From: Brienomyrus brachyistius
Taxonomy: Eukaryota; Chordata; Actinopteri; Osteoglossiformes; Mormyridae
Reading direction: 5' to 3'
Length of the DNA: 64,000 bases
NCBI RefSeq assembly: GCF_023856365.1
Contig: NC_064549.1
Span: 11,301,608-11,365,607 of the forward strand
In this document: positions 26,034-63,567 of the stretch, one piece after another
Position numbering within the stretch: position 1 is the first letter of the stretch
Layout: every line of letters starts with the position of its first letter
Translations under genes and position numbers: made by a program
The notes under the pieces: generated by a model
What the model saw: only the letters and a program-made list of their open reading frames with translations
Told to the model about the DNA's origin: nothing
Database searches by the model: none

Positions 26034-26208
26034 GGTCCCGTGTTCTCACTGGGATGCTAGTGGACTGGCGTGGTGCTGAGACTATTGGAGTATGGTGAAA
26101 CACCAACCCTTGCAGGTCTACGAGAGGCAGCTGTGTTTGTCGTGCCTGACTGGGATTTATGGGTGCCGCTGGAAGCGGTACCAGCGGTCACATGATGACA
26201 CGACCAAG
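26034..26208 (+). CDS. gdpd5: gdpd5 coding exon 1 (with 58 nt of 5' UTR)
   Basis: The acceptor (TTCTCTTCTCTAG) ends at 26033. The start ATG at 26092 has A at -3 and G at +4, and the exon encodes residues 1-39, ending K39 in phase 0 at a GTGAGT donor. It holds Cys15, Cys18 and Cys25. A 15-codon uORF (26054-26098) overlaps the start codon in another frame. Confidence 0.95.
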
Positions 26209-35200: not shown

Positions 35201-38200
35201 ATTTAACGCACCGAGTGTTGGTGGAGGGCTCTATGCGAGTGAGTGGTGTGTGTGAACGTGCCCTGTGATGGGCTGGTACCCCGTCCTGGATTGTTCCCTG
35301 CCTTGTGCCCATGGGCTCTGGACCCCCTGCGACCCTTAATAGGACAAGCGGTTACAGAAGATGGATGGATATATGTATATAAAATAAAAATATTGTGTGT
35401 GTGTGTGTGCGCGCTTGCACGGATACCTTTTTTTAACAGAAGTTAATCTTTTGACATATGTGCAGCTACCTTCCCATGGCACTCGTTTTCATCAGCGGTA
35501 TCGGAAGTGGACAATGGACCATAGAGCGGTGTTGGAGGAAGGGGCTGATTGTTTCTTCCGTAAGCATCACTCAATACGGAGTCCTATATGGAGTACAGAA
35601 GCCATATGAATGATTCCAAGAGGGAAATATGACAGATACTTACAAACAAATATAGCAGCAGAGACGGTGTCGGCTATCAATCGATCTTCTGATCACTTAT
35701 CCTGGATGGGGGGCTCGTCCATCACTATGCACATATACACACAGTCATACTCAATGGGAAATTTAGCTACACCAACTAGCATAATGGTACATTCCATTTA
35801 CCTCGGGGTTCGGAAATTGGAGCTAGAAATGACATTACGCCTGAGTTAACCACGTTGCAGTACAACAAGTTGGAAAGCCATTTCACAGTAGTAATTCTAG
35901 CCAGGTTTGTTAGCCATTGTTAGCAATACCACTTGAGAACAACACATTGCACGGTGTTTTGCACATACAAACAGCATAGCATAATTTCCACAGGTAGCGG
36001 TTGGACAGTACTGAGTCTATGACCAATTTTAACGAGTCACAAAAAAGACGCAAGTGCAAACGATACGAACAACTACAGCGTTCTGTTGACGAAGGGTGCA
36101 GCCATCTTGAATTTTGAGGCCGGCATCGTAAAGGTTTCCACGACTTTGGTGGGCATTTCCATTGAAATTTCCGACTGGGACCTTGACGGTTCCGACTTAC
36201 TGGTTCAAGTGGGACACAGCACTAATGCTGGTCCTTGGATTGTGGGAGAAACCCAGAGGTAACCCATGAAAATTCCATGCAGACAATGCGGGGGCAGAAT
36301 TTGAGCTGCCAACCTTGGGGGTGTGAAGCAATAGTGCTACTCACTGAGCCACTGTGTCACCCCCAGTGTCAGCCAATAAGTCTGAAATAGCCCTAAGCTA
36401 GACTGGATTCGCATAGCGAGAACGAGGGGCTATTCCTGACAGCCGCTAGCAGATTCCTCCGTAGCTGAAGGCTTTATTGCCTACGGATTTTTTTTAGTAT
36501 AAGAATCTCCAGAAAACCTGCACGTTCTGACTATAAGGTGTGAAGCAGCTTGTACATGTTAATGAGCTCGAGTAAAATTAGTGAGGTCCCAGATATCTTA
36601 GAGCCTTATGTGCAAGAAGGACTGTGCTGAATTTAATTGCAACTCAAGGAGAGACATTGGGTAAAAAAAATGACAAATATTTAATGTAGCCTATAATTTA
36701 GTTCTTACTGTGATATTTGTTTGTAGTGTTTTTGAATTTCATGAGTCGTATAGTCGCTTATAGATAGCATTGCTTTTGTGGTAGTAAATAAATATGTAAT
36801 ATCTTTGAGCTTCAATAACTAGTTTGGAAAAGAACGAAAGGAAAAACTTGTGTGAAATGTGATGCCAATATTAAGGGTTGATAATGCTATAATCTCATTC
36901 ACGTTTTTAATTCTCATTATTAAAAAAGGTTTGCAAACTTAGTTGAAGCAGTTTCTTGGGGTCAGGATAGGTCGTCATTTTTTCTTATTTGTAAACTGTT
37001 TCCCTTAAGAATGAAGGCTTGTTCTGCTTTTGCGTGATCTTTTCCAGTGCTAATATTTCAGAATAATATTGGTCCCAGTGTCAGACCCTGATGAACTTAA
37101 TCAATAAATTTAATCAGATGCTGATGTTTGCAGTGGTTAACCCAGTGCGTCTGTCCTTCATTAACATGTGGAAGGCAGTGGGTCTCGGAGAGCTGCGTTT
37201 GCAGGCCTTTCTTAATAATGCGAGTTAATAATGTTATACCCATTGTGTCGGTCCATGGGGTGACCTGTGTGCCTTTCCGTTTCTCAGTGGGAGTGCGTGT
37301 GGTTCCTCATCCTTATTGGCACCTTCTCCCTGCTTCTTGTCTGGCTCTACTTCTGGGTGGAGGCACGCAATGACTACAACGAGTTCAACTGGTGAGTGTG
37401 GACCTGTCCGTGGGGTCGATTGGGTGGAGGGTAAAATGGGGCGGGGCCTGGAAGACCAAGGTCATTGGGGTGCCGCACACCAATAAGATCGCCTGATGTC
37501 ATTTTTGCAGGGGTGTATACAGGGGCGGGGCCACAGGGACACTGACCCCAGCTGAAAGCTGATTGGTCCTGGGAGTGCCTCATCCCCTCCATTACTCTCC
37601 AATTTTAAACGTATCATTGGCTAATGATAAGGTTGCCCACCATTTGTGAACTATGGTCTTAAGCCATAAAAAAATCCTAGACTTGCCCCTGTGTTTTTAC
37701 AAGTTGTATAGCTAAACAAAAATCAAATATCAGTTCCTATGCCATCATTAGTCATTGATCATGTTCATTTTCTAGTTTAGAGGTTTTCGCACGTGTACAT
37801 GCAATGAAATTCTCGCTTGATTCAGACTATAGTGCCTATATATTGTATATAGAGCAATGAGAACAATAATGAACAGCCTGAAACCTGTCACACAAGGTAG
37901 GTGACATCCTGGGGGAGGGGCTTGTTAAACAGGAATAACTCCATAGACATGCACTCAGTGCATACATGTACACAGCACACACTGTATGTCGAAATGGGAA
38001 ATCATGTTTGATATTGGCATGGATAACAAAGGCTACCAATTTTCTGTTAGTTATCCATCCGCTTACCTGACACTTCTACAACACAGTTTACTTCCCTTTT
38101 GCATCCTGCTTTTTCTTTCTGTGGCAGAGATTCCCACGAGTGGCTCATCCGGCCGGATACAAGCTTGTTACGTGGAACCTGCTTGTTAGGTTTTAAATCT

Positions 38201-41200
38201 GCTTCTCCTCTGATGCCTTCAGTGTTGCTGCCAGTGTTCTTGGCTGTATACGCTTTGGATAGACCCAGCTGCCAGCACAAACCGACGCAGAACGGGGAAG
38301 AGCAGAGTCATTTCTGCTCACCAGCATCTGAAAAATGCTGGCTAGAGGAAACACTCTCAGGCATCTTTCTTTCACATTTACTGCACCGTTTAATTGAGTT
38401 TAGCAAGATTCACAAGGGCTCCCTCTCCATTTTCATTAGAGCTTTCGGTTCTCTGCTGTCACTGGCTACCATATTCCCTCAGATTTATGCGGCCATGTTT
38501 TTGCTGTGCAGTAGTACACCTGGTGTAAGATTCTTAATCAGTGCTGAATAGTTTTCCTTACCAAGTTGTCTTGTAACTAGTTTTCTCATATTTGATCCTT
38601 AGTCATGGGACCATCAAAGCAGCTCTCTTCAGGAATGGAAAGATCAGACTCAAATGTTTTTTTTTTTGTATATTTTGACATGTGCTGTGTAGGTTGTCTC
38701 AGAAATAATGTAGCAGTAATAATAATTAAAATGTCTTCGCCTGCCAAAGTTCTGACACATTTACTTTTATTTTTTAAGATTTTTTTTGTGGTTCTGCTGT
38801 TTATGGATTTTCCATTCGCTCCAGTCTTCCTGCTCTTTATATAGATTTATCAGAATGTCTCCTGAAAACGTCAGTGTGAGCTTCCTTGTTAGTTATTTAT
38901 TAAGCTTTTGAAACCTGACAGCATGCAGCCTAATGCTCCCTGTCCCGCCCACGTCCGATTTTAATATCCCAGCCAGTGGCCTATTGCTGCTATAACCGAA
39001 ACACGAGCAGAATTTGGGAAGGTCCCCTTTGGACCAGCATCTGTAAAAGACACACTAACCCAGTTAGAAGACATTTCGTGGTCCTTGCTCCCGTCCTGGT
39101 CTCTCCTTTCATTAAAATCTCTTGACCTGTTCCTTTAATCGCCCTTCATTAGATCATGCCAATTACTCAGGTGTCACCTAGACGCGTGTGCAACAATGCA
39201 TGTGTCTGTCTCACCTGCATCGGCCTCCCCAGCAAGGTGGTGCTCGCAGACGTTTCCGAAACTCTCCCTCATTCATCTACAGCTCTGGTCGTGATGGTAG
39301 CGAAAGGATCCTGGGCTGACTAGGTTATTTGAAACTCTTTGTATCTCTGTGTACTTTCAAAAGAGCATAAGAAGAACAAGAAATTTACAAATGAGCTAAA
39401 TTTGGCCCATCAAGCTCCTTTGGGAAGAACTTAATAGCTCAGAGTTGTTAATTTTATCTAGCTCTGATTTAAAGGAAGCCAGGGTTTTAGCTTGCAATAC
39501 ACTAACAGGAAGACTATTCCATACTCTAACTACACGCTGTGTAAAGAAGTGCTTTCTCAAATTCACTTTAAAATGTTCTCCCGCTAATTCCCACCTATGG
39601 CCACGAGTTCTAATATTTAAACTAATATTGAAGCAGCCATTTCCTCTCCTTGTGGCCTATGGACTTTCTGAACCTAGCAGAACATCTGTGACGGCATGTG
39701 GTTCCTTGTCATACATTGTCTCTGCCTCTATGGATCTTGTCACCTAGTGCCAATTGTGGACCATTCGGGTCACGCAGGTCTCCAGGGGGCAGTGACTTCT
39801 TCAATCCTGGGGATGTAAACTGACAGTACTAATAAACCCTCCTGCCCCCCTCCATCCACTGGTCTAAGCCACTGCTTCGCACATTTATAACTCAAGTATA
39901 ATGACTTAACCGAAATTAATGTCTCCCGAGGGTATGAATATCGGATCAGTGTGGTATTATTAGCAGCGGCGTGGTACAGGCGGTGGATGTGGAGGTGCTG
40001 ATGTCTTCCCTGCTTGTTAAGGTCTCTATACAACAAATCGGGGGAGTGGAACGACGGCACCATCACCGTCCTGACGATGACGGCGGCGGGCTTTACCTAC
40101 ACTGCGTTTTTAATGGTGAGTCGTCACCCAATCAGGCGCACAAAGCCAGCCGCTCCTGACAGAAATCTGGTCCACTACCAAAATGGCGGAGTGACTTATC
40201 ACAGACAACCTCGCCGAACTAAAGGGGGGGGGGGGGGACTCTGAGCTGCACAAAGACTGTGCCCCTGAAAAATGCTACCAAATGGCCTGCCTTTTTCAAC
40301 CCAAGCTACTGTTATCCATGATCACATACTCATGGGCGCCCCCTAGTGTCTGGGTCCCCTTTCTCCCCCCTTACAGGTGGCCCTGAGTGTTCATTTTATA
40401 CAAATGATTTGTACTGGTAGATATGGGGGTGGGGTCTATTTCACTACTGAGGATTATCATTGTCTTCTCTCTCTTAGGTTCTCGCCCTCGGTCACATAGC
40501 TCTGGGACAGCAGCTGAACCTTCACTGGATGCACAAGGTGTCCACATGATGTTCTGCTGGCTCTCGGGCCTTCATGGGCCTGGACGTGGGAAGCTCTGGA
40601 TGGTTACCAGCCTAATTAGCTCTTAGGCATTCGCGTGTGTGTGGGTGTGTCTGGCTTCTGATGGGTTGTTTTTGAGGGGGTGTAGTTATTCACAATGCAT
40701 CACCCCCTCCCCCCCCACAGATCGGCGTCACCGCAGCTCTGCTCACCACCGTCGTTGGGATGATCTCAGTCGGCCAGACGTGGGGAGAGGAATGGGATAT
40801 CATTGCCATCTCTCTCCAGGTACAGGCCCCGCCCAAAATCATGAATGCAGATCTGCCAGCATCCATCAATTATTCAAGGCTGGTTCATACTGCCGAGTGG
40901 CTGAAGCGGTGACCTCGACTACTGACTGCTTTTAAAGGAACCGAGAGCTAGCTGGGAGTCCATAGGAAGCCTGCATTTTAAAGGCATTTTATATCAGTGC
41001 TTGCTAAAAATACAGCCTGTTTCCATCGCATGGAAGTCAAGTCATAACTCAGACCATTGCATAGTGAATCATGGCATCGTTTCCTATAGAGACAGTGTTA
41101 TAAATGAGGATTGTGTTCCTGGATTTGGTAAAGTATGGCCAGAGATATGAGATTTAGTCACCTGAAAGCTCGAACGGACCAGTATTGACATGAAACATTA

Positions 41201-43804
41201 TTGAACCCTACCACTTAAAGCCTTAATAAGATATCAACACAGTTATTTTCTATTAGTTATTGTAGTCAAATATACTGCCCAACAAGGGCAAACACAATAA
41301 CTGAATATATTATTAAAATGGAATCTCTCTTATCTTGTAACAAAATATCTTGTTTCAGCTTATGCTCGGTTTTGAAGAAACCAGTGTAAAATTTACAGAA
41401 ACCACTAAATCCACTCTAAAAGCAAGGCAAAACATCACTTTTACGTTTCAGTGTCCGCATAATTATTGTGTTGTTTTTGTAGGGCAGTATAATGGTTGAT
41501 TACATTCTGCATCCCATGAACTGTTTTATGAGCTGCTCTGATCCATGACTGTTAGGGAAATTGTATCGTCACTTCGAGGCTGTAAGAAGGAGAGGAATCC
41601 AGGTGTTTGTGTCTTTTTCCAGGCCACAGGTCCCTTTCTTCACATCGGAGCCGTGATCGCCGTCACGGCTCTGGCGTGGCTGATTGCAGGCCAGGTGGCC
41701 CGCGCCGAGAGAATGTGTAAGCCCCTCCCTTTCCGCACACCGGCGGCAGACTACACGCTACCTAGCGGGGTTCCGGCTATGATTCATTTTGTGGACTCCA
41801 GCCCTAGTCGCACCGGGGTGGCGATGGCGGCCGCGGCCTGTCACGAGAGATGCTGCCGCTGTGCGCTCTCTCGCACGCTCACGTGCCGGTACGGTGGGTT
41901 AGATTTGTGCGTCACCGCTCGGCCCGGCTGTCAGCGAGCCCAGCCAAGCGACGCCAGATGATTCAATGCTCTCCCCCAGTCTGACGCCTCCAGGTTGGCG
42001 TCATGCGCATGCAACTTCTACCCCACATGACAAAATGTTTCATCATTGTCTGTGTCTCTCATGCCCACCATCGGAGGCTGTTCCCCACCAGAAATCCACT
42101 TCCCTTGTCCAGAGGGCTAACGTGATCCGAGCTGAAATGCAGGGGTTTGTTAAACAGTGACATTTCGTAAGAACGCCAATGAAACACCAGTGGTGAATTT
42201 TCCCACCTCTTACACCTGTAACTAGAGCCCTTCTGGAACATTCCAGTCTTGCATTGACCCCCAGTCTTGACCCGATATGTCCCCTTTGCTCATGTGACCA
42301 CCTCCTGTGCGGCGAAATGGATAAGCCAGGAGAATCCTTAGGACCCCGCTTAGCGATTGGCGTTGACGTTGCGTAACCTTGGTGATGGGAAAAGAATCTG
42401 CGGCAAATATGTTGCCTTTTTTTTCTTCGTTTTTTTTCCCCTCTGAAGTTGAGAGAGACGCTGGACGCTGCTACGGTTTTTGTTTTGTCTTGCCTATTTA
42501 TCAGAGCGTAAATTTTTTTGTCATTTATCTCTGCACTGTTTATATGCTGATATATTGCGTTACGTACCTTGCTTACAGGTATGACTGACCCAAAAACATG
42601 CAGAGTGCTTTTTAATATCCTTGCTCTGTCCACTGTCCAGTTGATGCCTTTGCAGACATCTGGCACTGCTGTAAGGTGTCCCCCCTCCCCCCCCCCCCCC
42701 CCCAGGGTTCCAAGCGGCCCTCCTGCTGTTCTATGCAGGCACCCTGCTGACGCTCTACCTGGTGCCACTTGGCATCAAGTCGCCGTGCATCATGAACCGA
42801 GGCGATCTCAAGACAAGGCCCGCCATCATTGGACACCAGGGGGCGCCAATGGTGAGTTGGCCTGGCGGGACCCTGCTACGCGCAGGAAAGCGCGTTACGC
42901 TGCCCGCCCTCTGTGGCGTCTTCGCCACCGCTCTCAGGACGTGTTCTAAACAGTGTCGCGCGATGCTACCCTTTTGCGAGACTTCTCAGCTTCCCACCCA
43001 GAGATGCCCGCTACCCAGGGCCGGATTAAGAGTGTTAAGTGCTGGAACACGGCTTGCGTGATGTCACATCAGAAAGAAGAGAAGCTGATTGGTGGCTCAC
43101 AAAATTAAAAAATGGATGAAACGCAGAGAAAAGAAGGATATACAATCGCAGTCATTTTATTCGTGAGTGGGATGGGGGGGGGGGCCTTATGGAGGATTGT
43201 CCTGCTTGGTGCCCCGCCGCCCCCCCCCCCCCCAGACGCAGTGCCCCACATGCCAAAATGCCCATATGGTTAATCGGGGCCAGTCACTGGGCTGCGGGCA
43301 TCTCATGGCTGATCAGCACCTGAAGGACACCTAGACTAAACATTCTGGAAGTCCAAGACAGTCCACGACAGTTTTCATTTTAGTGCCGTCTTGGCTACAG
43401 TGTATATATTGACATTTTTATGCCACAAGATGATATAAAGCTATCTGTGCTAATATACTAATGAAAGCTCTCTCCATTTTCCCTGTCAGCTGGCTCCGGA
43501 GAACACAATGATGGCCTTCCAGAAAGCTATTCAGCTGAAGGTCAGCGGCCTGGAGACCGACGTGACTATCAGGTAGCCCAACCAGTATAAACCAGTCAGT
43601 CCAGTAGAAACCTGAGGCCCCTGCTTGCTCCCACTGGGCCTCTTGGGCAGGAAAGTAAACTGAACATTCAGTCATGAGAGATTAAGCACTCTTAGGCCTC
43701 CAATCACAATTCTTTAGTTTGTAAGCAGACCACACTTAGTTTTGATGCGATGTGCAATATTAATGCAGAGCTGTGCATTGACCAAAGGGCATTTTTTTTC
43801 AGTG

Positions 43805-43874
<70 letters not shown>

Positions 43875-46800
43875 TTGGAATAATAATAATAATAATAATA
43901 AACCAATGTTACTTAAATCCCTCAAGACAACAGATATGTAGCTGAAGCAGTGAGGAACAACAGTATGAATCTAAGCAGGTTCTGTGTTACGGGCAAATGC
44001 ACATTCTTCCCGGTTTGGTTGAATTCAGTCTTTGTTAAAATCTGGGGTGCTGCTGGCTTCCGAAATGACACCCTGGCTCCCGGGGGTCTTGGGGACGAGC
44101 CGTCAGACTGGAACCTGCTAGAGGGATTTGCCCCCCGCCCCGAGCAGCATTAATGACCCCTGACGACAGGCAGGTCTGACGGAGCCATCCCAGAGGCTAC
44201 GCTGAATAATTAAACAAGACGACAGACGCGGCCTGGCCGAGGTCCGGGCACGCGGGGCACCTGCACACTGGGCTATTTAGGCTACTTTTTTAATAGTCAC
44301 ATGACCTGCACATTCTAGAAATTTCTTAACATACTTTCCAGCACTATGACTTTAAAATACTGAGCCGCGAATGACATTCTTTTGCTTTTGTAGAGCTTCA
44401 TAGGGTTACTTGGCTATTTCTCATCCCTAATGCTCTCATCCAAACATTTTCTGCAATCTTTTTTGTACCTTTGGATGCTTATATGGAGCAGGTCAATTTA
44501 GCTACTGTTCTTAAATATAATACACGAGGGCATCTCCTTGAACTTGGGCCTGTAACCTTTAGTTGACAAGTCTGTGTTCTTAATCACTATGCTACCTGCT
44601 GCCCCCCCCTGCAGTGAGCCAGAATGGGCAGGCATGTCTGGAATCAGAAATCAGAACAGTTGGGGGGGCTAACGGCCCCCCTCCCTAGGGGTTATATTAA
44701 GCGTCACACTGTGTAAAAACCAGAAATAATGTTTCACTACACAGCGTGGATGGGGTCCCCTTCCTTTTGCGTGATCGCACCTTGAGAAGGACAACCGACG
44801 TGAAGCAGGTCTTCCCCGACAGGCAGTTTGATGCTGCTTCTATGTTCAACTGGACCGACCTGCAGGCTCTCAATGCAGGACAGTGGTTTATCAAGGTATC
44901 CCCCCATCCAACAATCATCATTCCTGTTTTTTGTTCTTGATTATCCTAATCTAGTTGTCTTTTTCATCACTTGGTTCCTCAAGCAGAGACAATTTTTTTT
45001 GTGTGTTTTTTTAATGGCATAACAGGCACTTCATTAAGTTGAGTCAAATTGATGATTTGATTATTCAACTTGAATGGATTAAGGTCTGCCACAACCAAGT
45101 GCAACGCACAGAGATGAAGGCTGTGTCCAAATTGAGGGGCTGCATCCTTTGAAGGACGTTGTCTACGTAGCCTTTATAGGCTGCGTCCTTCAAAAGTCCA
45201 CGTGATGAATCTTGGGAAATGTTGGGCTGCTATCAGGTGGATCCTTCACGACTTGGCAACAGGACGCATTCCTAGACCACATCTGAGATTTTGAAATGGG
45301 ACGGGCTTGTCGGGTGGCTGTGTTGCACTCGGTCTTTGAATGCAGCCTTTGAAGGATGAATCGCCTGAATTTGGACACATCCCAAGAGGAGTGCATCCAT
45401 AGATCCAATGAGATGCATACAAGTATAGCTGCTGGGATATCATTGGTCATTGACTTCCTGTATGAGGCTGCTGATTGGCCACCTTACTTTGGCAAGTTGT
45501 GATCTGTCATTCTGCTGGCCTCTTGTCCCACCCGCCCTCAATCCCGGCCTACAGGATAACCCCTTCTGGACAGTGGGGTCCCTGTCCAAAACAGACTTGG
45601 TGCAGGCTGAGAACCAGTCCCTGTGCAGCCTGGAGGACTTCCTGGAGCTGGCAGCTGGCTTCAACTGCTCGGTGGTCTTCCGACTGCAGCGGCCCCCACC
45701 CGGCCACCCCCACCACATGAGCTGGATAAACGACACCCTGGAGACAGTGCTGAGTTCGGGGATCCAGCAGGAGCTGGTGAGGAGTTCCCTCCAGCGACGT
45801 TAAAGCAAGAGGATGATGCATCTTATATAACCAGATCCTGTCGTACTGATAAAGACAGGAGCCGTTGCCAGGAGAAATCGAGTCTGCAGTAGAACGAAAT
45901 ATAGACTGGAATCACAAAGACCAGTTTTACGCTGGAGGCACCTTAAAATATATCTGATATTAGGGGAAGCTAATCAATTCTGTGCGTAAAGTAGATATAT
46001 TCACAGGTTTATGTGCTTATGCATGTACAGGCTACTAGCAGATGTCTGTCTTTCTAAGCTAGCTTGAGTATGTATAGAATATCAAATCAAGTGGGGCTTC
46101 ATTGTGGCACCAGCCATGTATAGTCACACAGTATACAGTGACACAGAATGGCGTTCTGCCATGCTGCACCTGTGCTAAATGCTAACTGCTAACTGCTTCA
46201 CCTTTATGCAAAAAAAGTCATGACATTGACGTACAATGTAAATATAACGTTACGATGTTTAGAATGTTGGAAGCAGTAGGGTTGCATGTAAATAGCATGA
46301 GTGAGTCAATAAATATCAGAGCAATAAGTAAGAAATAACGTGACACTTGGATGCTGGAGTTCTGCCCACCTCAGTGGCCGCTACGCTGGGTGCCCCCTCC
46401 AGGTGATGTGGACCCCAGACAAGGACAGGAAGTTGGTGCGGAAGGTGGCCCCGGGATTCCAGCAGACCTCCACGCAAAAACAGTCCCCGGCCGCTGCGAA
46501 CCAGGGGGGCATCTCCAGGCTCCTCTTGCGCTACAACTGGGCAAGCGCTCGGGACGTCCGGTACGTGTCCGGCAAGTTCCGCCGGGCTGCGCAGAAGCAA
46601 AATTTCTCACTCGTGACTCTGTTTACGCCTTGTAGCGGGGGAACTCGGCGTCGAGGGCGAGCATGCAGAAAATGAAACGGAGCAGTTTTTCTTGTTGGAA
46701 GGAAGAATACTTTTTTTGCAGTATTGTATTCAGCTGCTGCATATAGTATTGTTTGGTGTGGGTGAGTGATGCGTGTGTCTGCATGGCCTACAGGGTGCTC

Positions 46801-49800
46801 TTCGCGCACAACGTGAGCCTCACCCTCTACACTGTGAATAAGCCATGGCTGTACTCCGTACTCTGGTGCAGTGGGGTGCCTTCAGTGTCCTCTGATGCCC
46901 CCCATATCCTGAATAAGGTGCCTTACCCCATCTGGCTCATGGTAAGCCTTCCCAGTAAACCCACCCACCCCCCAACACCCTGTTTCCAGCTGCGAAACCA
47001 TATGTACTGGGAAGAGAGCTTAGCCTTCACCTGGCACCGCCCATCTGTCCTTCTATTTTGACCTTCACTTACCCCCCCCACCCCCCCCCCCCCCAGCAGG
47101 GGCCTAACAGGAAGCAGGAAAATCGCCCCTTCCTTTGTTTTTGTTTACAGTTTATATAACTGCCCTTGAGTCAGTTTTTGTTCATGTGTGAAACAGGAAG
47201 TTCTTGTACGCAATAAAAATTGCTTCAGAATTACTGATGAGATTCGTGATTGTTTTAGATGCCTAAAGATCTGAGTCGTCGTTCCCATTCCCTCTAATTT
47301 TGGGGGATTGTTTATGCTATTAAACTATTGAAAGAAAATCTCATGAATGATTGCTGGAAATTGTGGCTGGGAGCGGAACTAAATTAGCTGTTGTTTAGTG
47401 CCCTCTAGAGGTTCATCTTGCATCAGCAGTTTGTGTTTCTTTTCAGACTCCAGATGAATACTGCATAAGCTGGGTCATAACGGATCTCGTCTCCATCATA
47501 ACAGTAGTAGGAATTTTTGTATTCCAGAAGTAAGTACTGCCCTCGAACCTTGCCGCGTTCATCAGCTCACGTCACTCCACAGGAAGTGGTTACGCAGTGA
47601 AGTCCTTCAGTGATCGGTCACCCATTCTATCAGTGTCTCCGGGGTTTTATATTTCGTGTTTTGCTCCATCTCATTAGCTACCGTGTGTTTCTAAAAACAC
47701 TGATGTCAAGATTCATTAAAGATGAAATGTTCAGTCTTGTGTGGAGCACATGCTACATTACTGTCTTACTCTACTGTACTCTCATAAATCTATTTTTTAT
47801 GACACATAATTTGAAAATATGGGTAATTGGACCAAGCTCTGCTGTAAATGGTTCTGTAAAATATGATGCAAGGGTTCTGACCACAGTTACAGTGGCTGAA
47901 CCAGCACATTATAAATCTCATGTTTCACACCCGGAATCGCATCGGTGTCGGGGTTACCTCAAATGATACTGAGCTCCCCCTGCTTTCCCAGCTGTGCCCC
48001 CCCGCCAACCTCCCCCCGCCAACCTCCCCCCAGCGCTTGAGCTTTTGGCTGTGCATTTGTTTTTTGAAGGACCGGCGGCCGCTGCCCAAATCATCCAGTA
48101 CCAGTACTGCTCCCCAAGCCCCGCCCCCAAGCCTCACCAACAAGCCCCGCCCCCAAATCCCACTCCCAAACTCCACCCCCAAGCCCCACCCACAGCAGCA
48201 GCCATGCCAGTCGCTCTTATTGCCAATAGCCTACATTAGCATCTCGCTAATCCTTAATTACAGCCATTGCCATCACGCTGTCTACCTCTCCCACAGACCT
48301 TCCCGTGTGACTCTCAGAAATGTCACCCTCCTCATCAATAAATAGGCATGAATATTAAAAAGAAATCCCTCAATATGATTCTGTTTACTGGAGCGATTCA
48401 AGAGTGAAACGTTCCTTGACCTTTGCGGTTGACCTTTGGCGTCAACCTTTTCTGAGCGTGGTTCTATGTGATTCCGGTGCGATCACTCCCTGCTGCCCCC
48501 TTTTGAGTCCTCAGCAACGTGAATGATGGGCCTGTGGTCAATAATGCTTATTATTCACGCTGACATGACATCAAATATCCCCCGACCCTGCGAATGGATG
48601 AATGGGTGTCGTCCTGTATTCAGACGCGAGGCCGGTGCAGTGGCCCATAAACCGATCTCGCATCTCCCGCCTCACTCCATTGTCAGCAGAAAGACCGGGA
48701 ACTTGTGAGGTCTTGACACCGATAAGTAGGGCTTATCATTTATCGGCAGATAGAGGTTGGGGCCACTCTTTGCTTTGTGTGGGAACTGTGCCGCTAATGG
48801 GCTCCCCCTCCCTATGTATGCTTGGCTCACAAATGTCATGTCCTACCGCCCCCTTACGGCAGTAAGAACCTGATATCTGGCACTAGGTGTACCCCCTGCT
48901 CTTGAGGTGCTGCATTTGAAGCTCACTTGTCCCTATTTAATGTGTTATTGAAGGGAACGCCTTCCACTGGCACCCCACACCCCCCATCCCCCAATGAGGT
49001 GCGGGGTGGGGGTGGGGGGGGCGATGTGGGACTCCTCACTCCCAAACTGACCTCTTGATTCTCTTTCCTCTTGCTGTTTCTCCCCTTCCTTTCCCTCTCC
49101 ACTCTGCCTGACGCGTAAACCCTTCCTCTCTGCTGCATTCTGGCATCTCTCAGCTATCACATGATCAGGTAACTGGGACGACCCTCCAGACACATGGTCC
49201 CCCCCCCCCCCCCATCCTCCGATTGGCTCTTACTCCTCACTAATACTTACTGTCATATTTGCATCTTTTCTACGCATCTGCTCTTCTTTGTCAATCCATA
49301 AATACCTTTACCCACTCGTCCCACTCTTCGTACATGTCTTTAGCATCAGCTCAGTCTGTCCATCTATTAATATCTGATCATTCTAGCTGTCAGTTTGATC
49401 TATCAGTGCCCTCCCGCCCCCCCCCCCCATACTAATCACCTCTTTGCTGTTTTGTTCTATTTTTATGCCTCTTACCTCCAGCCCCGCAGCTTCCTGTCTG
49501 TTGTCCTGCTTGCAAAAAAAACAACAAAACAAATGCTTCTCTCTGTACAGCAATCAGAAGTCGAACGTCTTAGAAGCACCACTTTGGTATCTCACCACAG
49601 CTCGCTCTGTAAAGTAAAGCTGGATGTCAGTCGCACTTGTGAATGGAGTCATTGTGGGTCTTATGTCTGAGGCGCCATGCCGAGCGGGCAGGACCCGGAA
49701 TGTCATCCTTGCTCGCGGTGCTGGGTCTGTGGGCTGACGCTCACCTAGGCCCCCGCCCCGGACCCCACCTGCGAGGAGGATCAAGGGAACCCAGATAGGG

Positions 49801-51830
49801 GGAATTCTGCCCCACGTTCTGGGGCTGATAAGAAAGTGACTCAGACAAGCGAAAGGTCTTTGCAACGTGGCAACCAAGACGAGCTGGAGTCTGGGGCTTA
49901 AGGGGTGGGGCCACAAGCCCCAGCTGAAAGCTGATAGGCCCTCGAAAAATATGACTAATGATTCGGTTGGCCCCACTTAAGCGCCCCACTGTAAAAGCAT
50001 CTTAGAATCATCCCAGGTTAGAGCTGACTTCCTGTCATGGTAATTCGAGTCCTCGTTCACTGTTAGGGTTGCAAAGGGATGGAAAATGTTCAGAAACTTT
50101 CCATGGGAAGTTAAGCTGGGGAGGTTTGGGAATCTTGAACTCAAGCTGTCAGATGCAGCTATGAAAGCAAGCCATGAATAATGCAACATAGAATGCGACT
50201 TATGCGCAGGTCGTTTTCATGCAGATGCTTGTTTTGCGGTGTTTTTCCACACATACACACCCTTCCTACCAAGCACTTGGTCACACAGTGATATCACTAT
50301 TAGCGCTGTCAAGATGCCCCCCCCCCTACCAACTACATTTAAATTCCCTGTTACAGGCTTAACCTACAATTTAGTCCCATATTTTCCCATTAATTCCCAT
50401 GGAAAGTTTCCAACTTTGAAAACTCCAATAATTTTGCAACCCTATTCACTGTGTTGTGGGTAAAATTAAGGCTTTTATAGTTCATTTATATTACATTTGA
50501 CCTACTTAGCAGAGGCTTTTTACAAAACAGTCTATATATAATATCTGTGATCGCTGGGTCAGACAGTCCCCGGATTCCCTGAACATTTCTCTGCTTCTTT
50601 GTTACATAATCTATATGTATACACACACATCTATATGTATAAACCATTTACATCATGTTTGTTATATTGTAGCAAGAGAAATAGGTGGGAATACTGGTCT
50701 GAGCATGCTTTACAAAAGTCTCACATGGGATAAATGAAAAATGTATTTCCGTTATGTTGGTATAATACAGCAGAATGAATGCTGTTAAACCATTCAGTGA
50801 AGGATAATATAAAATTTATAAAGCGTTTCATGGGTTGTAATTCACTATATATACATTATTAGAAGATGTTATATTAATATAAGGTTTGCTAAAGCGCCCC
50901 CTTGTGGCTTTCCAGATGGCGCATGAGCGGGATCCGCAGCTACAACCCGGAGCAGATCATGCTGAGCGCGGCTGTCCGGCGGAGCAGCCGGGACGTCAAC
51001 ATCATGAAGGAGAAGCTCATCTTCTCAGGTGACGAGATTAGGGGGCACTGCGGACCCCGGAACCGGCGGGGGTTGAGCCCGCTGCCTGTCGCCTGTGTGC
51101 GCGTCTGCGTGTGTGTGTGTGTGTGAGTGTAAGCCCCGCATGCGTTCTGAGTGTTTGTACATCTCCCAAAGGTTCCCAGACTTCGCCGCCAGAAGCCCTT
51201 GCCACATTCCAGTGCTTGAAGTCCCCCCATCCCATTCCATCAACCCCGTCCCATCCAACTGTTTAACTACCCGTTGCTACCATTCCTATGCACCTCCCCA
51301 CCCCCTCCCCGCACCCTTCTGCCCGCTGGAGACTTGCATGGCCATTCATAGAGCTCACACTTGTGGTTTGCCCACCACTAATGGCAGCCAATAAGAGGTG
51401 AGTTCAGAGTGCTGAGGTTTCCCTGTCAGTGTCCCATTCTTATGTGTTCCATATCCTTAATGCATTTGTCTACTGTTAGCAATAACATGGTGGCTAGCAA
51501 AATTTAAAAATAGAACGGGTTTAATGGGAAGACTGTCCAAATTTAACATGCTAAAACCGTATGTGTTTAATGCATAGATGACAATGAGGAAAATGTAACT
51601 AATAATTAGAATAAATCGTAAATAATTAGCTGTTATCGGATTGCAACATGCAAAATGCACGGTTTTTTGCATTAATTATTATTGTAAATTATGCTTGCGT
51701 GTCTCATGCTATGCCGTCATCCCCTGAAACTCCCCGCCACACAGAGTTGAGCAACGGAGTGGGCAGCACGGAGGAGCTGTATGCGGGGAACGGGTACGAT
51801 CGCTACACCAACGACGGCGTGGCCCACTGA
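26034..51830 (+). CDS. gdpd5: Glycerophosphodiester phosphodiesterase domain-containing 5 (GDE2-like), 15 coding exons
   Basis: Six-pass membrane protein with an extracellular GDPD domain. In other vertebrates GDE2 cleaves the GPI anchors of proteins such as RECK and promotes neuronal differentiation. The join 26092-26208, 37288-37391, 40022-40115, 40478-40537, 40721-40819, 41623-41716, 42706-42851, 43490-43572, 44745-44895, 45555-45776, 46403-46560, 46794-46941, 47447-47529, 50916-51028, 51745-51830 gives 585 residues, near the roughly 600 usual for the family. All junctions are GT/AG and keep frame. The N-terminus MVKHQPLQVYERQLC and the CLSCLTGIYGCRWKRY motif are diagnostic. Membrane segments are near residues 40-62, 88-112, 126-145, 163-183, 190-211 and 497-518; the GDPD domain is about 228-480. 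H233, E242, E260 and D262 are present, but position 275 is Arg instead of catalytic His and 234 is Gln instead of Arg. The tail lacks cysteine. gdpd5a versus gdpd5b cannot be decided. Confidence 0.95.
29483..29540. repeat. 17-bp direct repeats around a 20-bp perfect palindrome
   Basis: GCTAGCCGCTCTCCAGC occurs at 29483-29499 and again at 29512-29528, with a partial third copy after it. Between and overlapping them is GCTAGCGGCCGGCCGCTAGC (29498-29517), a perfect palindrome. It is G/C-rich against AT-rich surroundings. Confidence 0.85.
30293..30352 (-). mobile_element. LINE 3'-end fragment (L2-like), probable
   Basis: TTTATTTATAAAGCACTTTAAAAAC ... GAAGTGCTGGACAAGG resembles the start of the L2-like block at 58561 (TTTATTTATAAAGCACACTTAAA ... 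AAGTGCTGAATAA). This suggests another 5'-truncated minus-strand copy of the same family. Confidence 0.45.
31921..31962. repeat. (TG)13 followed by G15
   Basis: Dinucleotide tract running directly into a G homopolymer. Confidence 0.95.
32224..32355. mobile_element. hAT-type MITE, family B, copy 3 (diverged)
   Basis: CGGTGATTCTCGGTCCTTGG ... CAGTCCATGTTTTTGCTCCC at the left and TACTGGGCTGGGAAACACTG at the right match the ends and interior of 8851-8997. The flanking duplication is no longer convincing. Confidence 0.65.
33070..33200 (+). mobile_element. Diverged SINE/L2-type tail
   Basis: GTGCCCCGCAGTGGACTGGAATCCAGTCC ... CATGCCCTGCGATTACTGGGATAGGC ... TAGATAAGCAG follows the order of the L2-related 3' half of the SINEs at 35225 and 59800, with many changes. 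Confidence 0.5.
34429..34449. repeat. Poly-C run followed by (AC)n
   Basis: About 21 C residues followed by AACACACACACACC. Confidence 0.9.
35225..35372 (+). mobile_element. SINE/L2-type 3' end
   Basis: Contains GTGCCCTGTGATGGGCTGGTACCCCGTCC ... TTGTTCCCTGCCTTGTGCCC ... GGACCCCCTGCGACCC ... AGGACAAGCGGTTACAGAAGATGGATGGATA, the characteristic 3' end of fish SINEs that share a tail with L2 LINEs, ending in ATGG repeats. The tRNA-derived head is missing. Confidence 0.8.
36225..36365 (-). mobile_element. tRNA-derived SINE head and body
   Basis: The reverse complement begins GGGGGTGACACAGTGGCTCAGTGAGTAGCACTATTGCTTCACACC. It continues with GCAGCTCAAATTCTG (B box-like) and TGCATGGAATTTTCATGGGTTACCTCTGGGTTTCTCCCACAATCC. 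It is a minus-strand member of the SINE family at 59474, lacking the tail. Confidence 0.8.
37288..37391 (+). CDS. gdpd5: gdpd5 coding exon 2
   Basis: Residues 40-73 plus two bases of W74. It encodes the first membrane segment, starting WECVWFLILIGTF, and the DYNEFNW loop typical of GDE2/GDE3. Confidence 0.95.
37392..40021 (+). other. gdpd5 intron 2
   Basis: 2.6 kb, no exon recognised. It includes an unclassified dispersed repeat at 39361-39735. Confidence 0.8.
39361..39735. repeat. Unclassified dispersed repeat-like sequence
   Basis: The stretch from about GAGCATAAGAAGAACAAG through TTTGGCCCATCAAGCTCC, GAAGACTATTCCATACTC and AAATGTTCTCCCGCTAATTC reads like a dispersed element seen in several ray-finned fish lineages. 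I am relying on recall of its style, and cannot name the family or define its ends. Confidence 0.4.
40022..40115 (+). CDS. gdpd5: gdpd5 coding exon 3
   Basis: Completes W74 and encodes residues 75-105 (SLYNKSGEWNDG, then the second membrane segment); phase 0 end at GTGAGT. Confidence 0.93.
40478..40537 (+). CDS. gdpd5: gdpd5 coding exon 4
   Basis: Exactly 60 nt, residues 106-125, VLALGHIALGQQLNLHWMHK, a strongly conserved family stretch. The donor GTGTCC is weak. Confidence 0.93.
40721..40819 (+). CDS. gdpd5: gdpd5 coding exon 5
   Basis: 99 nt, residues 126-158, third membrane segment and the QTWGEEWD loop; donor GTACAG. Confidence 0.93.
41623..41716 (+). CDS. gdpd5: gdpd5 coding exon 6
   Basis: Residues 159-189 plus one base of W190: ATGPFLHIGAV, fourth membrane segment and the conserved QVARAER; donor GTAAGC. 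Confidence 0.95.
42675..42703. repeat. Poly-C splice acceptor tract
   Basis: A run broken by a single T that forms the pyrimidine tract of the exon 7 acceptor (AG at 42704-42705). Confidence 0.9.
42706..42851 (+). CDS. gdpd5: gdpd5 coding exon 7 (start of catalytic domain)
   Basis: Completes W190 and encodes residues 191-238: fifth membrane segment, conserved SPCIMNRGDL, and the first catalytic motif GHQGAPM. H233 is CAC at 42834-42836. The next codon is CAG (Q234, 42837-42839) where the family has Arg. Confidence 0.95.
43490..43572 (+). CDS. gdpd5: gdpd5 coding exon 8
   Basis: Residues 239-265 plus two bases of S266: APENT (E242) and LETDV (E260, D262), the metal-binding acidic residues of the GDPD fold. 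Confidence 0.95.
43807..43902. repeat. Compound (GT)n(AT)n(AAT)n microsatellite
   Basis: GT to 43836, AT to 43873, then AAT units at 43879-43902, within gdpd5 intron 8. Confidence 0.97.
44447..44606 (-). mobile_element. tRNA-derived SINE
   Basis: The reverse complement starts GGGGCAGCAGGTAGCATAGTGATTAAGAACAC, a tRNA-like head, followed by an AAAGGTTACAGGCCCAAGTTC box. It ends in a GATGAGAGC-type tail at the low-coordinate side. Confidence 0.7.
44745..44895 (+). CDS. gdpd5: gdpd5 coding exon 9 (altered catalytic motif)
   Basis: Completes S266 and encodes residues 267-316: VDGVPFLLRDRTLRRTTD, then WTDLQALNAGQWFIK. The second catalytic motif, normally H-D, reads R275-D276; the codon at 44770-44772 is CGT. 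Confidence 0.95.
45119..45382. mobile_element. MITE with inverted ends
   Basis: GGCTGTGTCCAAATTGAGG at the left and CCTGAATTTGGACACATCC at the right are inverted. CATCCTTTGAAGGA and CCTTTGAAGGATG internal blocks are also mirrored. It is about 264 bp, non-coding, with no clear target duplication. Confidence 0.65.
45555..45776 (+). CDS. gdpd5: gdpd5 coding exon 10
   Basis: 222 nt, residues 317-390, starting DNPFWTVGSLS and containing NQSLCSLEDFLELA, middle of the GDPD domain. Confidence 0.95.
46403..46560 (+). CDS. gdpd5: gdpd5 coding exon 11
   Basis: Residues 391-442 plus two bases of R443, including LVRKVAPGFQQTS, a stretch shared closely with mammalian GDPD5; donor GTACGT. Confidence 0.94.
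46794..46941 (+). CDS. gdpd5: gdpd5 coding exon 12
   Basis: Completes R443 and encodes residues 444-492: LYTVNKPWLYSVLWCSGVPS, the end of the catalytic barrel, then PYPIWLM. Confidence 0.95.
47447..47529 (+). CDS. gdpd5: gdpd5 coding exon 13
   Basis: Residues 493-519 plus two bases of codon 520: PDEYCISWVITDL and the last membrane segment; donor GTAAGT. Confidence 0.95.
48106..48195. repeat. C-rich degenerate tandem repeat
   Basis: Degenerate units of the type CCCCAAGCCCCGCC repeat about five times in gdpd5 intron 13. Confidence 0.7.
49154..49168 (+). CDS. gdpd5: Candidate 15-nt gdpd5 microexon
   Basis: CTATCACATGATCAG is bounded by CATCTCTCAG and GTAACT splice sites, preceded by a long pyrimidine tract. 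It is in frame: inserted between exons 13 and 14 it changes K520-W into NYHMIR-W, adding five residues just after the last membrane segment. I recall a similar NYHLIRW form in some vertebrate GDE2 isoforms. TGC motifs lie 12-25 nt upstream of the acceptor. Confidence 0.7.
50056..50452. mobile_element. hAT-type MITE, family A, copy 2, with perfect target duplication
   Basis: Element 50064-50444 has perfect 12-bp inverted ends, TAGGGTTGCAAA and TTTGCAACCCTA. Identical 8-bp flanks TTCACTGT lie at 50056-50063 and 50445-50452. It shares CCATGGGAA-type arms and internal sequence with 5849-6271, in the opposite orientation internally. No transposase is present. Confidence 0.88.
50916..51028 (+). CDS. 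gdpd5: gdpd5 coding exon 14
   Basis: Completes codon 520 and encodes residues 521-557 plus one base: SGIRSYNPEQIMLSAAVRR then MKEKLIFS, the highly conserved cytoplasmic tail start; donor GTGACG. Confidence 0.95.
51745..51830 (+). CDS. gdpd5: gdpd5 coding exon 15 (C-terminus and stop)
   Basis: Completes E558 and encodes residues 559-585, ending NDGVAH and TGA. The tail has no cysteine and is shorter than the mammalian tail. Confidence 0.9.
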
Positions 51831-54025
51831 CCCGGGCTTGCTTGCCAGGATCACCTCCCCATGACGGACTGTCAACTGAGCGGGCGGGTAAAAAAAATAA
51901 ATAAAATAAAATTTAAAAAGGGACGCACAAAGGAAACGTGGAGAGTAATTCTTTTTAAAATTTTATTATTTTTGTTCCACTCGGTGTGCCTGGCGCTACG
52001 GATAGACATACGGCTGTAGTGCCAAAACACACAATGTTCTGTACATGGCTGTCAATGTCACTTTGATTGTCCTTGCTCTCGTCGTAGGGTGGCGTTCAAG
52101 TGGAGCGTGGCAGTTTACATTGCACTTTTTTAAAAAACGGACTGACTTTCAAAGTCTGCGGCCGCCTTTCCGTTTACAGTGTTTGCCGAATAACTAACTC
52201 TTTGCCCTTAGGCAGGCTGTGTATTTGCATGCTGGATTTTATACAGCCATCTTTGTTATTTTAAATATAGTTTTCTATATTTAAGACCGTTCTCCAGTGG
52301 TATTTTTGGATAGTTTGCCGTGAAATTGATCTTCGCGATTCTGCCTCATTTATTTTTAGATCGCGGCATGCTTTTACACGTGTATTTGGCATCTGTGTGT
52401 TCCTCAAAACGAATGTCCCTAAAATGTTTAGAAGTGGTGAATTGGATTTAGTCTTTTAACATTTGAATGGTTGTGCATGCTATAGCTGTTCTGGGAAAAA
52501 GGAGCATTTGAAAGTATGTATTTTGTAATGTGTAGGAATCTAAAATTTGTACCTGGTGGTGTTGCTCTCTTGATCCATATGTTGTGCGCTATGTAGACGC
52601 CGTGATGAGCCTAGTGTTGGAATCAGAGGTCGATACTTGCATACAATAGTGTTGTAATACATGTAGATTAGAGGAAAAAAATACCAAAATGAGGCTCATG
52701 ATGTCCTTGACGTTCTTTTCTTCATCTGGGTAGAATGTCACTCTGACACGGTGGTGTTCAGGATGCATGGATGAGTGGAATGTGCAGCGTGTCCATTAAA
52801 GAAAGGAAGATGAGAATTGCAAATCATAATGCAGTGTAATACTGATCAATTTAAATTCATTGCACATATCTTTGTGTTTTAATGATTATAATACCAAAGC
52901 ATTTTTTTATTAAGCAAGCAGTCATTATTCCCTGCATACATTTCACAATGAAGTGCACGACCTGGCAACCACACAGATTTATTTATTATTTTTTTTGATG
53001 ATGTGAGGATTCCTAGGTCACTTCGAAACCCCAACAGATTTGAATAAATATAGTTTTCTAATAGCTGACAATCGCAGTGTTGCGCATTCGCAGTATGTAA
53101 TTTTCGTGCTTGTAAGCTTTGAGAGGCGCAGTTGATTTTAAAAATCGACGCTCGTTGGGTTAGGCCAGGCCGCAGTGGAGGATTTGAAGCAGTGTTTTGC
53201 CCCCATAGTTTTATTAGCTGCGACGTCCCACGTTACCAGAAAAGCTACTGAATCTGCTGACAACTGGAATACTATGCGATAAACTACTGTAGGTTTGTAT
53301 CCTGATCGTTTAGATGTGCTGGAAACATCAAATCGTTTGCATGTTCTTTTTTTAATGCCATTTTTGATGTGTATATATGAAATCTGCTTCACCCCATGAA
53401 GAAATCTAATTTAATGCTGATCAATTTACCTCCCAATACCCATGTTGTCTCTATATGTTCTTCTGTCTCCGTCACATACGTAAGCATGCATTTTTTTCCA
53501 TTGAATTATTTTATTTTCCTGTCACAAATTGTCATTTGACCGCTAAGCTACAATTATTTGTGAAACTTCGCCACAGTAACAGTATCTGCATTTGTCAGTA
53601 CATTATATTACTGTATAGGAGAGTGCATGCAAGACAGTGTCATACACGGAACCATGGATTAAACAGGCGTTTATCATTTTTAATGGCAGAATCAAATTTC
53701 GAATGACATTTATGTGAAATGACAAAAACTATCTGGACAGAAGTAATCAAAGGCGCTGTCAACAATTTTCACAGCAGACTTTTTTTCCCCTTCCAAGATG
53801 GCACATTGGTACAAAAATGTTCTTTAGTATTAATGCGCAGTGGGAAATAAACTAAAGAAAAAATACTCGGTAATTCTGTCTGGTGAAAAGGCAAAGTAAT
53901 ATGAGCTTCTAATTAATTTGTATGATGAACTGATTTCCTCGGATACTTTTTAAATACATATTTGTACCTTATGCGCTGTTTCGGTTTGTTATTTCATGTG
54001 TGCAATAAAAAGTCTCCGTTTTGAA
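51831..54025 (+). other. gdpd5: Probable gdpd5 3' UTR
   Basis: About 2.2 kb of AT-rich, repeat-poor sequence after the stop. Candidate polyadenylation signals include AATAAA at 54004-54009 and several earlier ones. The true end is not determinable from sequence alone. Confidence 0.45.
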
Positions 54026-55736: not shown

Positions 55737-56302
55737 TCAGCTAAAGTTCGTCTTGCGCAGGTGTTTGTTCGGGACCTCAATGGCGCTGACTTGCAAAGGC
55801 CAGGAGCCTCCCATGATTCCTGCCTGGATGGCCACACCTGTGACCACGGCCAAGTCTGGGTCCACCGAGGTATTGGGGTCCTTGCTGAAGTACTCGCTGA
55901 TGAGCTGCCGGACACGGGGGATGCGGGTCGAGCCTCCAACTAGCACTATCTCATCCACCTCCTCCTTGTGGAGATGACCCTCTGCCAACACTCTCTCCAC
56001 TGGCACAAGTATCTTCTGGAAAAGGTCGGCGTTGAGTTCCTCGAAAAGATCCCTGGTAATCAGCTCCTCAAATACCACCGGTGTACTGAGTTCTGGGTCC
56101 TCCCCGGTCTCCAGGTGCAACGGGATCCTCAGCACGACGCTTGGCTGGAAGGTGAGGTTGAGCTTGGCAGCCTCCACGGCTTGCCGCAGGCGGTGGATGT
56201 CCTCTTTTCTCGTGGGTGGAGTGCCGTGTTCCTGCTGGATCCTCTCCATGGTATGTCGCAACAGCCTTTGACTGAAGTCCTGTCCCCCAAGCTTGTTGTT
56301 CC
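55737..56302 (-). CDS. hspa13: hspa13 exon 5
   Basis: Completes G250 and encodes residues 251-437, [15 protein letters not shown] to the stop TGA (plus-strand TCA at 55737-55739). Contains [11 protein letters not shown]. Confidence 0.97.
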
Positions 56303-57790
56303 CTTGGCAAACACAAACAAAAGCATTAATGGTTCCTCTTATCACCATATGATCATATTGTGACAAGTGGCCTCTCGAACCTACCTGCCATGGCCCTGGT
56401 GAGAAACATCCCCCCTTGCTTGTTCAGCAAAGACACATCCAGCGTCCCTCCCCCCAGGTCCACCACCAGCACGTTAGACACGTCCACCTTGTGCAGCCCG
56501 TACGCCATGGCTGCTGCAGTCGGCTCATTGATCACCCGCAGGATCTCCAGCCCTGGATTTGACCAGGGAAAGGTGACGTACGCAGATTAAAACATAAACA
56601 ATTCACAAAGACTGCAGTAAACCCAACTGTCTGAAAGCCGAGCCGGACCAGCCGGCAACTGAGAGACGTACCAGCCAAACGGGCAGCCTTGATGGTATAG
56701 TTCCTTTGCCGCTCGTCAAACTCTGCTGGCACAGAGATGACCGCCTTTTCGACTACCACACCTAGGTGTTTCTCAGCCATCTTCTTCATCTTCCGCAAGA
56801 GCTGGAAACTAATGAATTCTGGGCTCACTGTGAATGTGCGATTGGTCGAAACTAAAAATTCTGCACTTCCGTTGTTGTACAACACCTGGGGCGTGGGGGA
56901 TAAAACAGTAACTTTATTACTGACTGACCTGTTAACATTTACTTGTGGGAGTTTTACATCTCATTAGATATCTGATTGGTTGCTTGGACCCATCTCCTCT
57001 ACAATCTGATTGGTTATCTATCTGAATAAATCTTTTTTTTCCCTTCTGCCCTCAGAAATCTTTTGTATAAGTAAAACATAATTATTTGTACATAGAAGTT
57101 TTGCATAATTAATACACTTTTACAGACTTTCCAGTTAACTACCTTGAATTGATAACGGGAACTTTCTTCTTCCAAGCCCTCGGGCTCAAAAATTTTCCCA
57201 ATGAACCGCTTGGCATCATAAATGGTGTTGTGGGGATTGTTGTCCGCTAGCTCCTGCCCCTCGTAGCCTGCGTGAATGTCCGTGGCGGTGAACGATACCA
57301 CACTGGGAATGCTCTTCCGGCCCTCCTGGTCGCCGATGACCTCCACGTCGCCGGTCCCTGCGTGGAAAACTCCCACGGAGCAGAACGTGGTCCCCAAGTC
57401 CAAACCGATCACCTTAGGCTTTGGGGGAGGCAGGTACTGCTGACCAAGGTAACCGGCGAGGAGAAGCGCTAGAATAGCTGATCCTGTTGGTTATTTAGAA
57501 CGAAGTGTTACATGTCTGTATAATGTTTCCACGGAGGAAAACCCATCATGTTCTACTGTATTAGTTAACCAGTCGCCCCACGGTCTACTGAATCAGAACC
57601 AACAATTAGTAGACATTACAAGACAGAAATAGCAATTTACCTAACTGATACATTAATATGCTTATTACAGTCACAAATCCGTGTTGACTAGCTAGACAGG
57701 CAAGGCACACTATCTCACGATTTTCTTAGTATTTCTTTAATTGCCTACAAGAAGTTGAAATTTACCCAGTATTGACATTTCTCCAGCCAT
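55737..57790 (-). CDS. hspa13: Heat shock protein 70 family member 13 (Stch), 5 exons
   Basis: ER/microsome-associated HSP70-type ATPase consisting of the nucleotide-binding domain without the C-terminal substrate-binding domain. Minus-strand join: 57790-57766, 57483-57143, 56885-56672, 56552-56385, 56302-55737, giving 437 residues. It starts [20 protein letters not shown], an N-terminal hydrophobic signal segment (about 6-22). DLGTT is at 37-41, [12 protein letters not shown] at 202-213, DLGGGT at 225-230 and GGSTRIPR at about 372-379, the phosphate and adenosine motifs of the actin-like ATPase fold. The end [11 protein letters not shown] matches the family C-terminus. All introns are GT/AG. 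The human protein is about 471 residues; the difference is a shorter loop in exon 5. A first Met further in (MIGLDLG) is not the real start because exon 1 fits. Confidence 0.97.
56385..56552 (-). CDS. hspa13: hspa13 exon 4
   Basis: Residues 195-249 with split glycines at both ends: [18 protein letters not shown] and [14 protein letters not shown]; donor GTAGGT. Confidence 0.97.
56672..56885 (-). CDS. hspa13: hspa13 exon 3
   Basis: Residues 123-193, [14 protein letters not shown] to KAARLA, including [14 protein letters not shown]; donor GTACGT. Confidence 0.97.
57143..57483 (-). CDS. hspa13: hspa13 exon 2
   Basis: Completes G9 and encodes residues 10-122: the hydrophobic segment, [16 protein letters not shown] and AKRFIGKIF, ending FK in phase 0; donor GTAGTT. 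Confidence 0.97.
57766..57790 (-). CDS. hspa13: hspa13 exon 1 (start)
   Basis: 25 coding nt encoding MAGEMSIL plus one base of G9, matching the vertebrate N-terminus; donor GTAAAT. Confidence 0.93.

Positions 57791-61032: not shown

Positions 61033-63567
<2,535 letters not shown>

Follow-up and report, generated by a model that had tools for sequence, protein, structure and literature searches.

The 64,000-nucleotide window analysed here (Brienomyrus brachyistius, contig NC_064549.1, positions 11,301,608 to 11,365,607 of the forward strand) holds a complete gdpd5 coding sequence, assembled as a model of 15 exons on the + strand (26092-51830), whose reading frame is open over 585 residues and whose introns all start with GT and end with AG (14/14). 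GDPD5, or GDE2, is studied as a neuronal enzyme that cleaves glycosylphosphatidylinositol (GPI) anchors, with its loss leading to neurodegeneration in mice and with zebrafish used as a model (PMC7033719). In the window, codon 275 (44770..44772, exon 9, 44745..44895) is CGT and encodes arginine at the site of the second catalytic histidine. The sequence GTCCCCTTCCTTTTGCGTGATCGC translates to V-P-F-L-L-R-D-R around this codon, and both the sequence and the gene model bear out the F-L-L-R-D motif reported in an earlier, sequence-only reading of this DNA. Its placing of the residue at position 275 by counting is exact, the same count giving His275 in gorilla, bird, coelacanth and bichir, and the site is indeed the second catalytic histidine of the GDPD motif HR..EN..EXD..HD as given in PMC4926365. 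Absent from the sequence-only reading is a second active-site change, HRG to HQG: His233 is kept (CAC, 42834-42836) in exon 7 (42706..42851), where the GDPD ectodomain begins, and the adjacent codon 234 (42837..42839) is CAG and encodes Gln, in place of the Arg of the GDPD motif, according to the gene model and relatives. Two metal-site acids, E260 (43553-43555) and D262 (43559-43561), are kept in exon 8 (43490..43572).

The window protein matches the Pfam GDPD profile (PF03009) over residues 233-466 with 72.9 bits (cut-off 23.6), as do all 47 members of the GDPD5 set examined (47/47), and it has the GDPD barrel fold. In protein searches it is identical over its full length to the predicted GDPD5 of B. 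brachyistius (P0001, 100% identity), a prediction that probably derives from the same assembly and is therefore no check on the base in codon 275, and it shares 94% identity across 95% of its length with a protein of Paramormyrops. The possibility that close relatives have His275 is contradicted, since both FLLRD and HQG recur in the Paramormyrops protein P0002.

Comparative counts derive from three protein searches, of which the best 120 of 1341, 1849 and 236 hits were used, and because of these limits, and because the first query itself carries R275 and Q234, they describe a sample rather than all fishes. The third search, queried with the tail sequence of a tarpon protein, yielded the teleost gdpd5a clade, bichir, sawfish and a second Paramormyrops copy. 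The main tree contains 132 of the 298 fetched proteins, hand-picked at approximately one per species and copy, with isoforms and near-duplicates excluded, and two further trees contain 72 and 68 hand-picked rows. Counts given for 128 rows leave out four partial or mispredicted proteins (P0294, P0244, P0241 and P0253, with R, S, R and R at residue 275, respectively). Rows were assigned to gdpd5a or gdpd5b by the tree and a few source names, and several deep forks in the trees lack resolution, including the one uniting gar with bowfin and that at which the main teleost groups meet. The window protein groups with Paramormyrops and Scleropages, with Shimodaira-Hasegawa-like approximate likelihood ratio test (SH-aLRT) values of 95 and 96 in the 72- and 68-row trees, and it sits with rows that their source names 5b in the 132- and 72-row trees; the fork joining osteoglossomorphs to other 5b rows is not resolved in the 68-row tree, from which key columns were removed. 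Judged by gene model and trees, the window gene is intact and represents the gdpd5b orthologue in a mormyrid electric fish.

An alignment of gdpd5a and gdpd5b proteins from many fishes, which the sequence-only reading had suggested, shows Arg275 to be widespread in both copies. The best 120 of 1341 hits in the first search (isoforms and the window's own protein included) have Arg (70), His (47), Lys (2) or Gly (1) at residue 275; at residue 234, 101 have Gln and 15 have Arg, and 110 have His at residue 233. Among 82 teleost gdpd5b rows, residue 275 is Arg in 42, His in 38 and Lys in 2, with Gln234 in 69/82 and His233 in 74/82, and among 17 gdpd5a rows Arg275 is found in 16, with His233 lost in 14/17 (Arg 13, His 3, Gln 1). 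Across the 128 rows, both histidines are present in 22/23 tetrapods, 35/82 gdpd5b, 0/17 gdpd5a and 3/6 other rows, and the full H233-R234-E260-D262-H275 set occurs in 4/128 (Pungitius, one tarpon copy and two frogs). Percomorphs account for 36 of the 38 gdpd5b rows with His275 (counted by eye on the tree), the rest being Centroberyx and one tarpon copy, and Arg275 is seen in most of the fetched fishes outside this group.

With respect to the earlier branches, Amia (bowfin) reads H-Q / E-D / R at positions 233 and 234 / 260 and 262 / 275, a gar-like protein R-R / E-D / R, bichir H-R / Q-D / H, and a further protein, which branches among the ray-finned fishes outside the teleosts, H-Q / Y-D / H. 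Since Arg275 is found in Amia, in the gar-like protein and in most early teleost branches, it is most simply read as an old neopterygian state, with later returns to His in percomorphs. The same distribution is obtained on the 68-row tree built without the six key columns, where the minimum number of changes is 12 for site 275, 11 for site 233 and 10 for site 234. As far as the sequences go, Arg275 is an inherited feature of neopterygian GDPD5 and no local defect. The notion that the change is special to this copy is not upheld, with Arg275 in the bowfin, the gar-like protein and 58/99 teleost rows; the single CAT-to-CGT transition proposed along with it is possible, as an old change that cannot be placed in the Brienomyrus lineage. 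It is likewise hardly credible that the codon reflects a single-base assembly error or a decayed copy private to Brienomyrus, an explanation contradicted by Arg275 in the bowfin, the gar-like protein, 42/82 gdpd5b rows and most fetched non-percomorph fishes, by Arg275 together with Gln234 in Paramormyrops, and by the intact frame and splice sites of the window gene.

Two proteins stand apart in these trees. The second Paramormyrops copy (P0249, gdpd5a-like) carries R233, R275 and A276, and its end branch is the longest in the 72- and 68-row trees, which suggests fast change in mormyrids. The sawfish Pristis (P0285), the only cartilaginous fish in the trees, reads N-R / N-N / H, with Asn at 233, 260 and 262 and His275 kept, a separate active-site departure.

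In the tetrapod search (118 rows from the best 120 of 1849, two proteins of more than 720 aa being excluded and isoforms and one coelacanth included), His275 is present in 117/118 rows and His233 in all 115 rows with a letter at that position, and 113/118 have Gln260, a replacement of one of the metal-site acids in a protein for which enzyme activity has been reported. The one Arg275 in these 118 rows belongs to the gecko Eublepharis (P0236), whose GDPD5 also carries Gln234. Tetrapod GDPD5/GDE2, a six-transmembrane GPI-anchor-cleaving phosphodiesterase, is orthologous to window gdpd5 and similar in length, and the two share the MKEKLIF tail motif (invariant in 70 aligned rows, some of them fetched by the tail search), Cys25, Cys340 and Cys468. 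They differ in the active site, with His233 and His275 in 72/72 rows (tetrapods and one coelacanth, isoforms included) that mostly have Gln260, whereas in the window protein Arg275 is accompanied by Gln234 and Glu260 and the C-terminal Cys of the redox switch is absent. Five alignments with GDPD/GlpQ proteins of bacteria and archaea (among them 2pz0, 5t9c and 4oec) show H-R-G and H-D, compared with H-Q-G and R-D in the window protein, which also lacks a Glu where the third metal ligand is presumed to lie. This position, placed by inspection, is 359; the window has Arg359, and Glu is not among the six commonest letters listed there for each group of the 128 rows. With no Glu listed at 359 and mostly Gln260 in tetrapods, the metal site is, by these residues, unusual in GDPD5 as a whole. 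The suggestion that the window copy keeps its metal-binding acids holds for E260 and D262 and seems to fail at 359.

Site rates were computed within the GDPD domain (residues 227-489), the tetrapod set comprising 72 rows, namely proteins of 590-612 aa from the tetrapod search, with isoforms and one coelacanth, together with three later picks, but leaving out Eublepharis. Sites 233 and 275 both lie at the 7th rate percentile in tetrapods, at the 55th and 76th, respectively, in gdpd5b (82 rows) and at the 58th and 41st in gdpd5a (17 rows). Sites 235, 242-244, 276 and 281-283 remain at or below the 21st percentile in gdpd5b, where G235, E242, N243, T244, D276, R281, T282 and T283 are fixed in 82/82 rows, and R234, E260 and D262 are fixed in 17/17 gdpd5a rows. 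Because rates rise at 233 and 275 while neighbouring motif sites stay slow, the loosening is, on these estimates, confined to the catalytic residues rather than spread over the whole motif. The fixed residues in both copies count against plain relaxation, an explanation that we find quite improbable, in which the pocket is functionless in fishes, the protein is kept for its membrane part and tails, and CpG mutation pressure (CGT to and from CAT, CGG to and from CAG) accounts for the switching between H and R at 275 and between R and Q at 234. Also hard to reconcile with it is that 98/99 teleost rows have Arg, His or Lys at position 275 and none has Cys, given that C-to-T change at CpG yields Cys as readily as His, if the codons are CGY elsewhere. 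Relaxation does agree with the 12, 16 and 17 changes at 233, 234 and 275 on 128 tips, none of them below the domain median of 12, with the window codons CGT and CAG, which are consistent with CpG-type transitions, and with mean rates in gdpd5b that are lowest in the tails (0.11 in the N-terminal tail and 0.36 in residues 527-557) and highest in the GDPD domain (1.30), an order much alike in tetrapods (0.31, 0.28 and 1.26).

A regulatory feature is altered as well, one that does not define orthology. A Cys25-Cys576 disulfide is described as keeping GDE2 inactive until Prdx1 reduces it (PMC6616918). Cys25 is encoded in exon 1 of the window gene (26164-26166) and kept in 82/82 gdpd5b rows, and the tail column of the switch has Cys in 6/6 non-teleost fishes and 20/23 tetrapods, compared with 1/82 gdpd5b rows (6 of the 82 being gapped there) and 0/17 gdpd5a rows (1/99 teleost rows in total), in which Tyr is usual. 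The window protein has no Cys in this column and carries Tyr570 (51780-51782) in the LSxC region, which holds the switch Cys in non-teleosts. Only the gdpd5b count is free of bias towards Tyr, since the gdpd5a rows were fetched with a Tyr-bearing tail. The ectodomain cysteines Cys340 and Cys468 are kept in nearly all rows, and they match or adjoin C340 and C467 of GDE2 as named in PMC4432624.

To judge from these residues, the acid/base pair is broken in much of neopterygian GDPD5, through Arg275, through Arg233 in most gdpd5a and with Gln234 in most gdpd5b, and the protein, its GDPD profile, the other motif residues and the cytosolic tails are conserved despite this. His17 and His59 are the base and acid in a Pyrococcus GDPD, hydrolysis requiring both a general base and a general acid (PMC4926365), and the loss of standard catalysis that had been proposed for window gdpd5 appears to be a fair deduction. 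We lean towards the view that Arg275-type GDPD5 is a conserved pseudo-phosphodiesterase that binds instead of cleaving. Standard GDPD hydrolysis would then be slight or absent in Arg275 proteins, the pocket, basic at 275 and with D276, R281, T282 and T283 kept, would hold a phosphodiester or GPI head group uncut, and the membrane protein would act by binding GPI-anchored partners and trafficking them through its conserved tails. The basic residue at 275 in 98/99 teleost rows suggests that a positive charge is wanted there, as for the holding of phosphate, and its persistence, with no Cys, to which CpG decay would lead as easily as to His if codons elsewhere are CGY, favours a binding role along with trafficking by the tails. 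The loss of the redox switch alongside that of the acid/base pair is as expected if little activity remains to be gated. The MKEKLI tail motif is assigned a role in endocytosis and recycling (PMC7033719), and a non-catalytic precedent is provided by a report that GDPD5 acts by competitive binding of CD55 (PMC13187013). PRG-1 (LPR4), an inactive relative of the lipid phosphate phosphatases in which point mutations are described as having ended catalysis and spared lipid handling (PMC11314389), belongs to a different family and offers an analogy only, should fish GDPD5 be a pseudoenzyme. Within its known family, neopterygian GDPD5 would be best classed as a pseudoenzyme-like variant, and its active-site erosion seems to be unrecognised in print as far as the open-licence papers searched are concerned; no experimental test of H275 was found among the three papers that a search on this point listed.

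Several points weigh against the pseudo-phosphodiesterase interpretation. The state is not uniform, with the 35/82 gdpd5b rows that have both histidines being nearly all percomorphs. GPI-anchor cleavage is reported for mammalian GDE2 despite its Gln260 and its lack of Glu359, which makes the textbook signature a poor predictor in the GDPD5 family. The GDPD domain is fastest in tetrapods too, so that its speed in fishes proves nothing, and the trees cover GDPD5 rows, with no GDPD4 or GDPD2 of the same fishes as controls. The structure model of gdpd5a is of low confidence, and its 233-241 loop, with a predicted local distance difference test (pLDDT) score below 50, gives no support for a well-formed double-Arg pocket. 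As for the switch, Cys is present somewhere in the tail in 8/82 gdpd5b and 1/17 gdpd5a rows, the column is gapped in 6/82 gdpd5b rows, and both the tail conservation and the absent Cys of gdpd5a are biased by a query tail that already had Tyr.

Some of the same evidence bears on whether teleost GDPD5 proteins, at least gdpd5b, are still enzymes with a non-standard chemistry, in which His275 and a full metal site are dispensable and His233 with D262, or another residue, is enough. We regard this as unlikely on balance. It would fit the reported activity of tetrapod GDPD5 with Gln260 (113/118 rows among the best 120 of 1849) and no Glu listed at 359, as well as the retention of His233 in 74/82 gdpd5b rows. 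A 2018 zebrafish study by van Veen reportedly observed cleavage of a GPI-anchored protein by one of the two zebrafish copies. In zebrafish embryos depleted of GDE2, insulin expression is restored by human GDE2, a result taken as functional conservation (PMC7033719), which speaks for retained activity and against a pseudo-phosphodiesterase. At neutral pH arginine serves poorly as a general acid, which argues against such an enzyme, as does the lack of His233 in 14/17 gdpd5a rows, the H233A mutant being reported as catalytically dead (PMC7033719) or less active (PMC11040351). The authors of one review failed to detect phospholipase C (PLC) activity of GDE2, yet accept that it cleaves GPI anchors (PMC11314389).

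A wider interpretation, which we put forward tentatively and with some doubt, is that vertebrate GDPD5 did not have cleavage as its common ancestral function, that its catalytic residues left the GDPD signature repeatedly, and that both teleost ohnologues may be arginine-lined phosphate or GPI receptors freed from the Prdx1 switch. The repeated departures that would speak for it are Gln260 in the bichir, the coelacanth and the majority of tetrapods, the three Asn residues of the sawfish (233, 260 and 262), Arg275 in neopterygians, and Arg233 with Arg275 in most gdpd5a. If it is true, GPI-anchor release by mammalian GDE2 would be a lineage-specific elaboration or partly indirect. If the acid/base pair is indeed missing from the fish proteins, what fish rescue experiments measure may not be standard cleavage, and fishes would offer natural 'active-site mutants' that separate enzymatic from binding roles.

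The remaining features of the gene model complete the locus. Coding exon 1 (26092..26208) contains the start codon, encodes the greater part of the N-terminal cytosolic tail and matches P0001 at 100%, followed by exons 2 (37288..37391), 3 (40022..40115), 4 (40478..40537), 5 (40721..40819) and 6 (41623..41716). Downstream of the FLLRD motif, exon 10 (45555..45776) encodes Cys340 and R359, exon 11 spans 46403..46560, exon 12 (46794..46941) contains Cys468 and the end of the GDPD domain, and exon 13 (47447..47529) encodes the last predicted long helix. The cytosolic tail with MKEKLIF (residues 550-556) lies in exon 14 (50916..51028), and exon 15 (51745..51830) ends with the stop codon, all of these exons being on the + strand. 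Beyond the gene, the stretch 52997-53090 resembles the alternative C-terminal end seen in Paramormyrops isoform P0002 and in the window falls into two parts in different frames, with stops. Further downstream, on the - strand, we observe three HSP70-family gene pieces at 55740-57490 (Pfam PF00012), probably of hspa13, and a SAM-domain exon at 62864-63193 (PF07647), presumably of samsn1.
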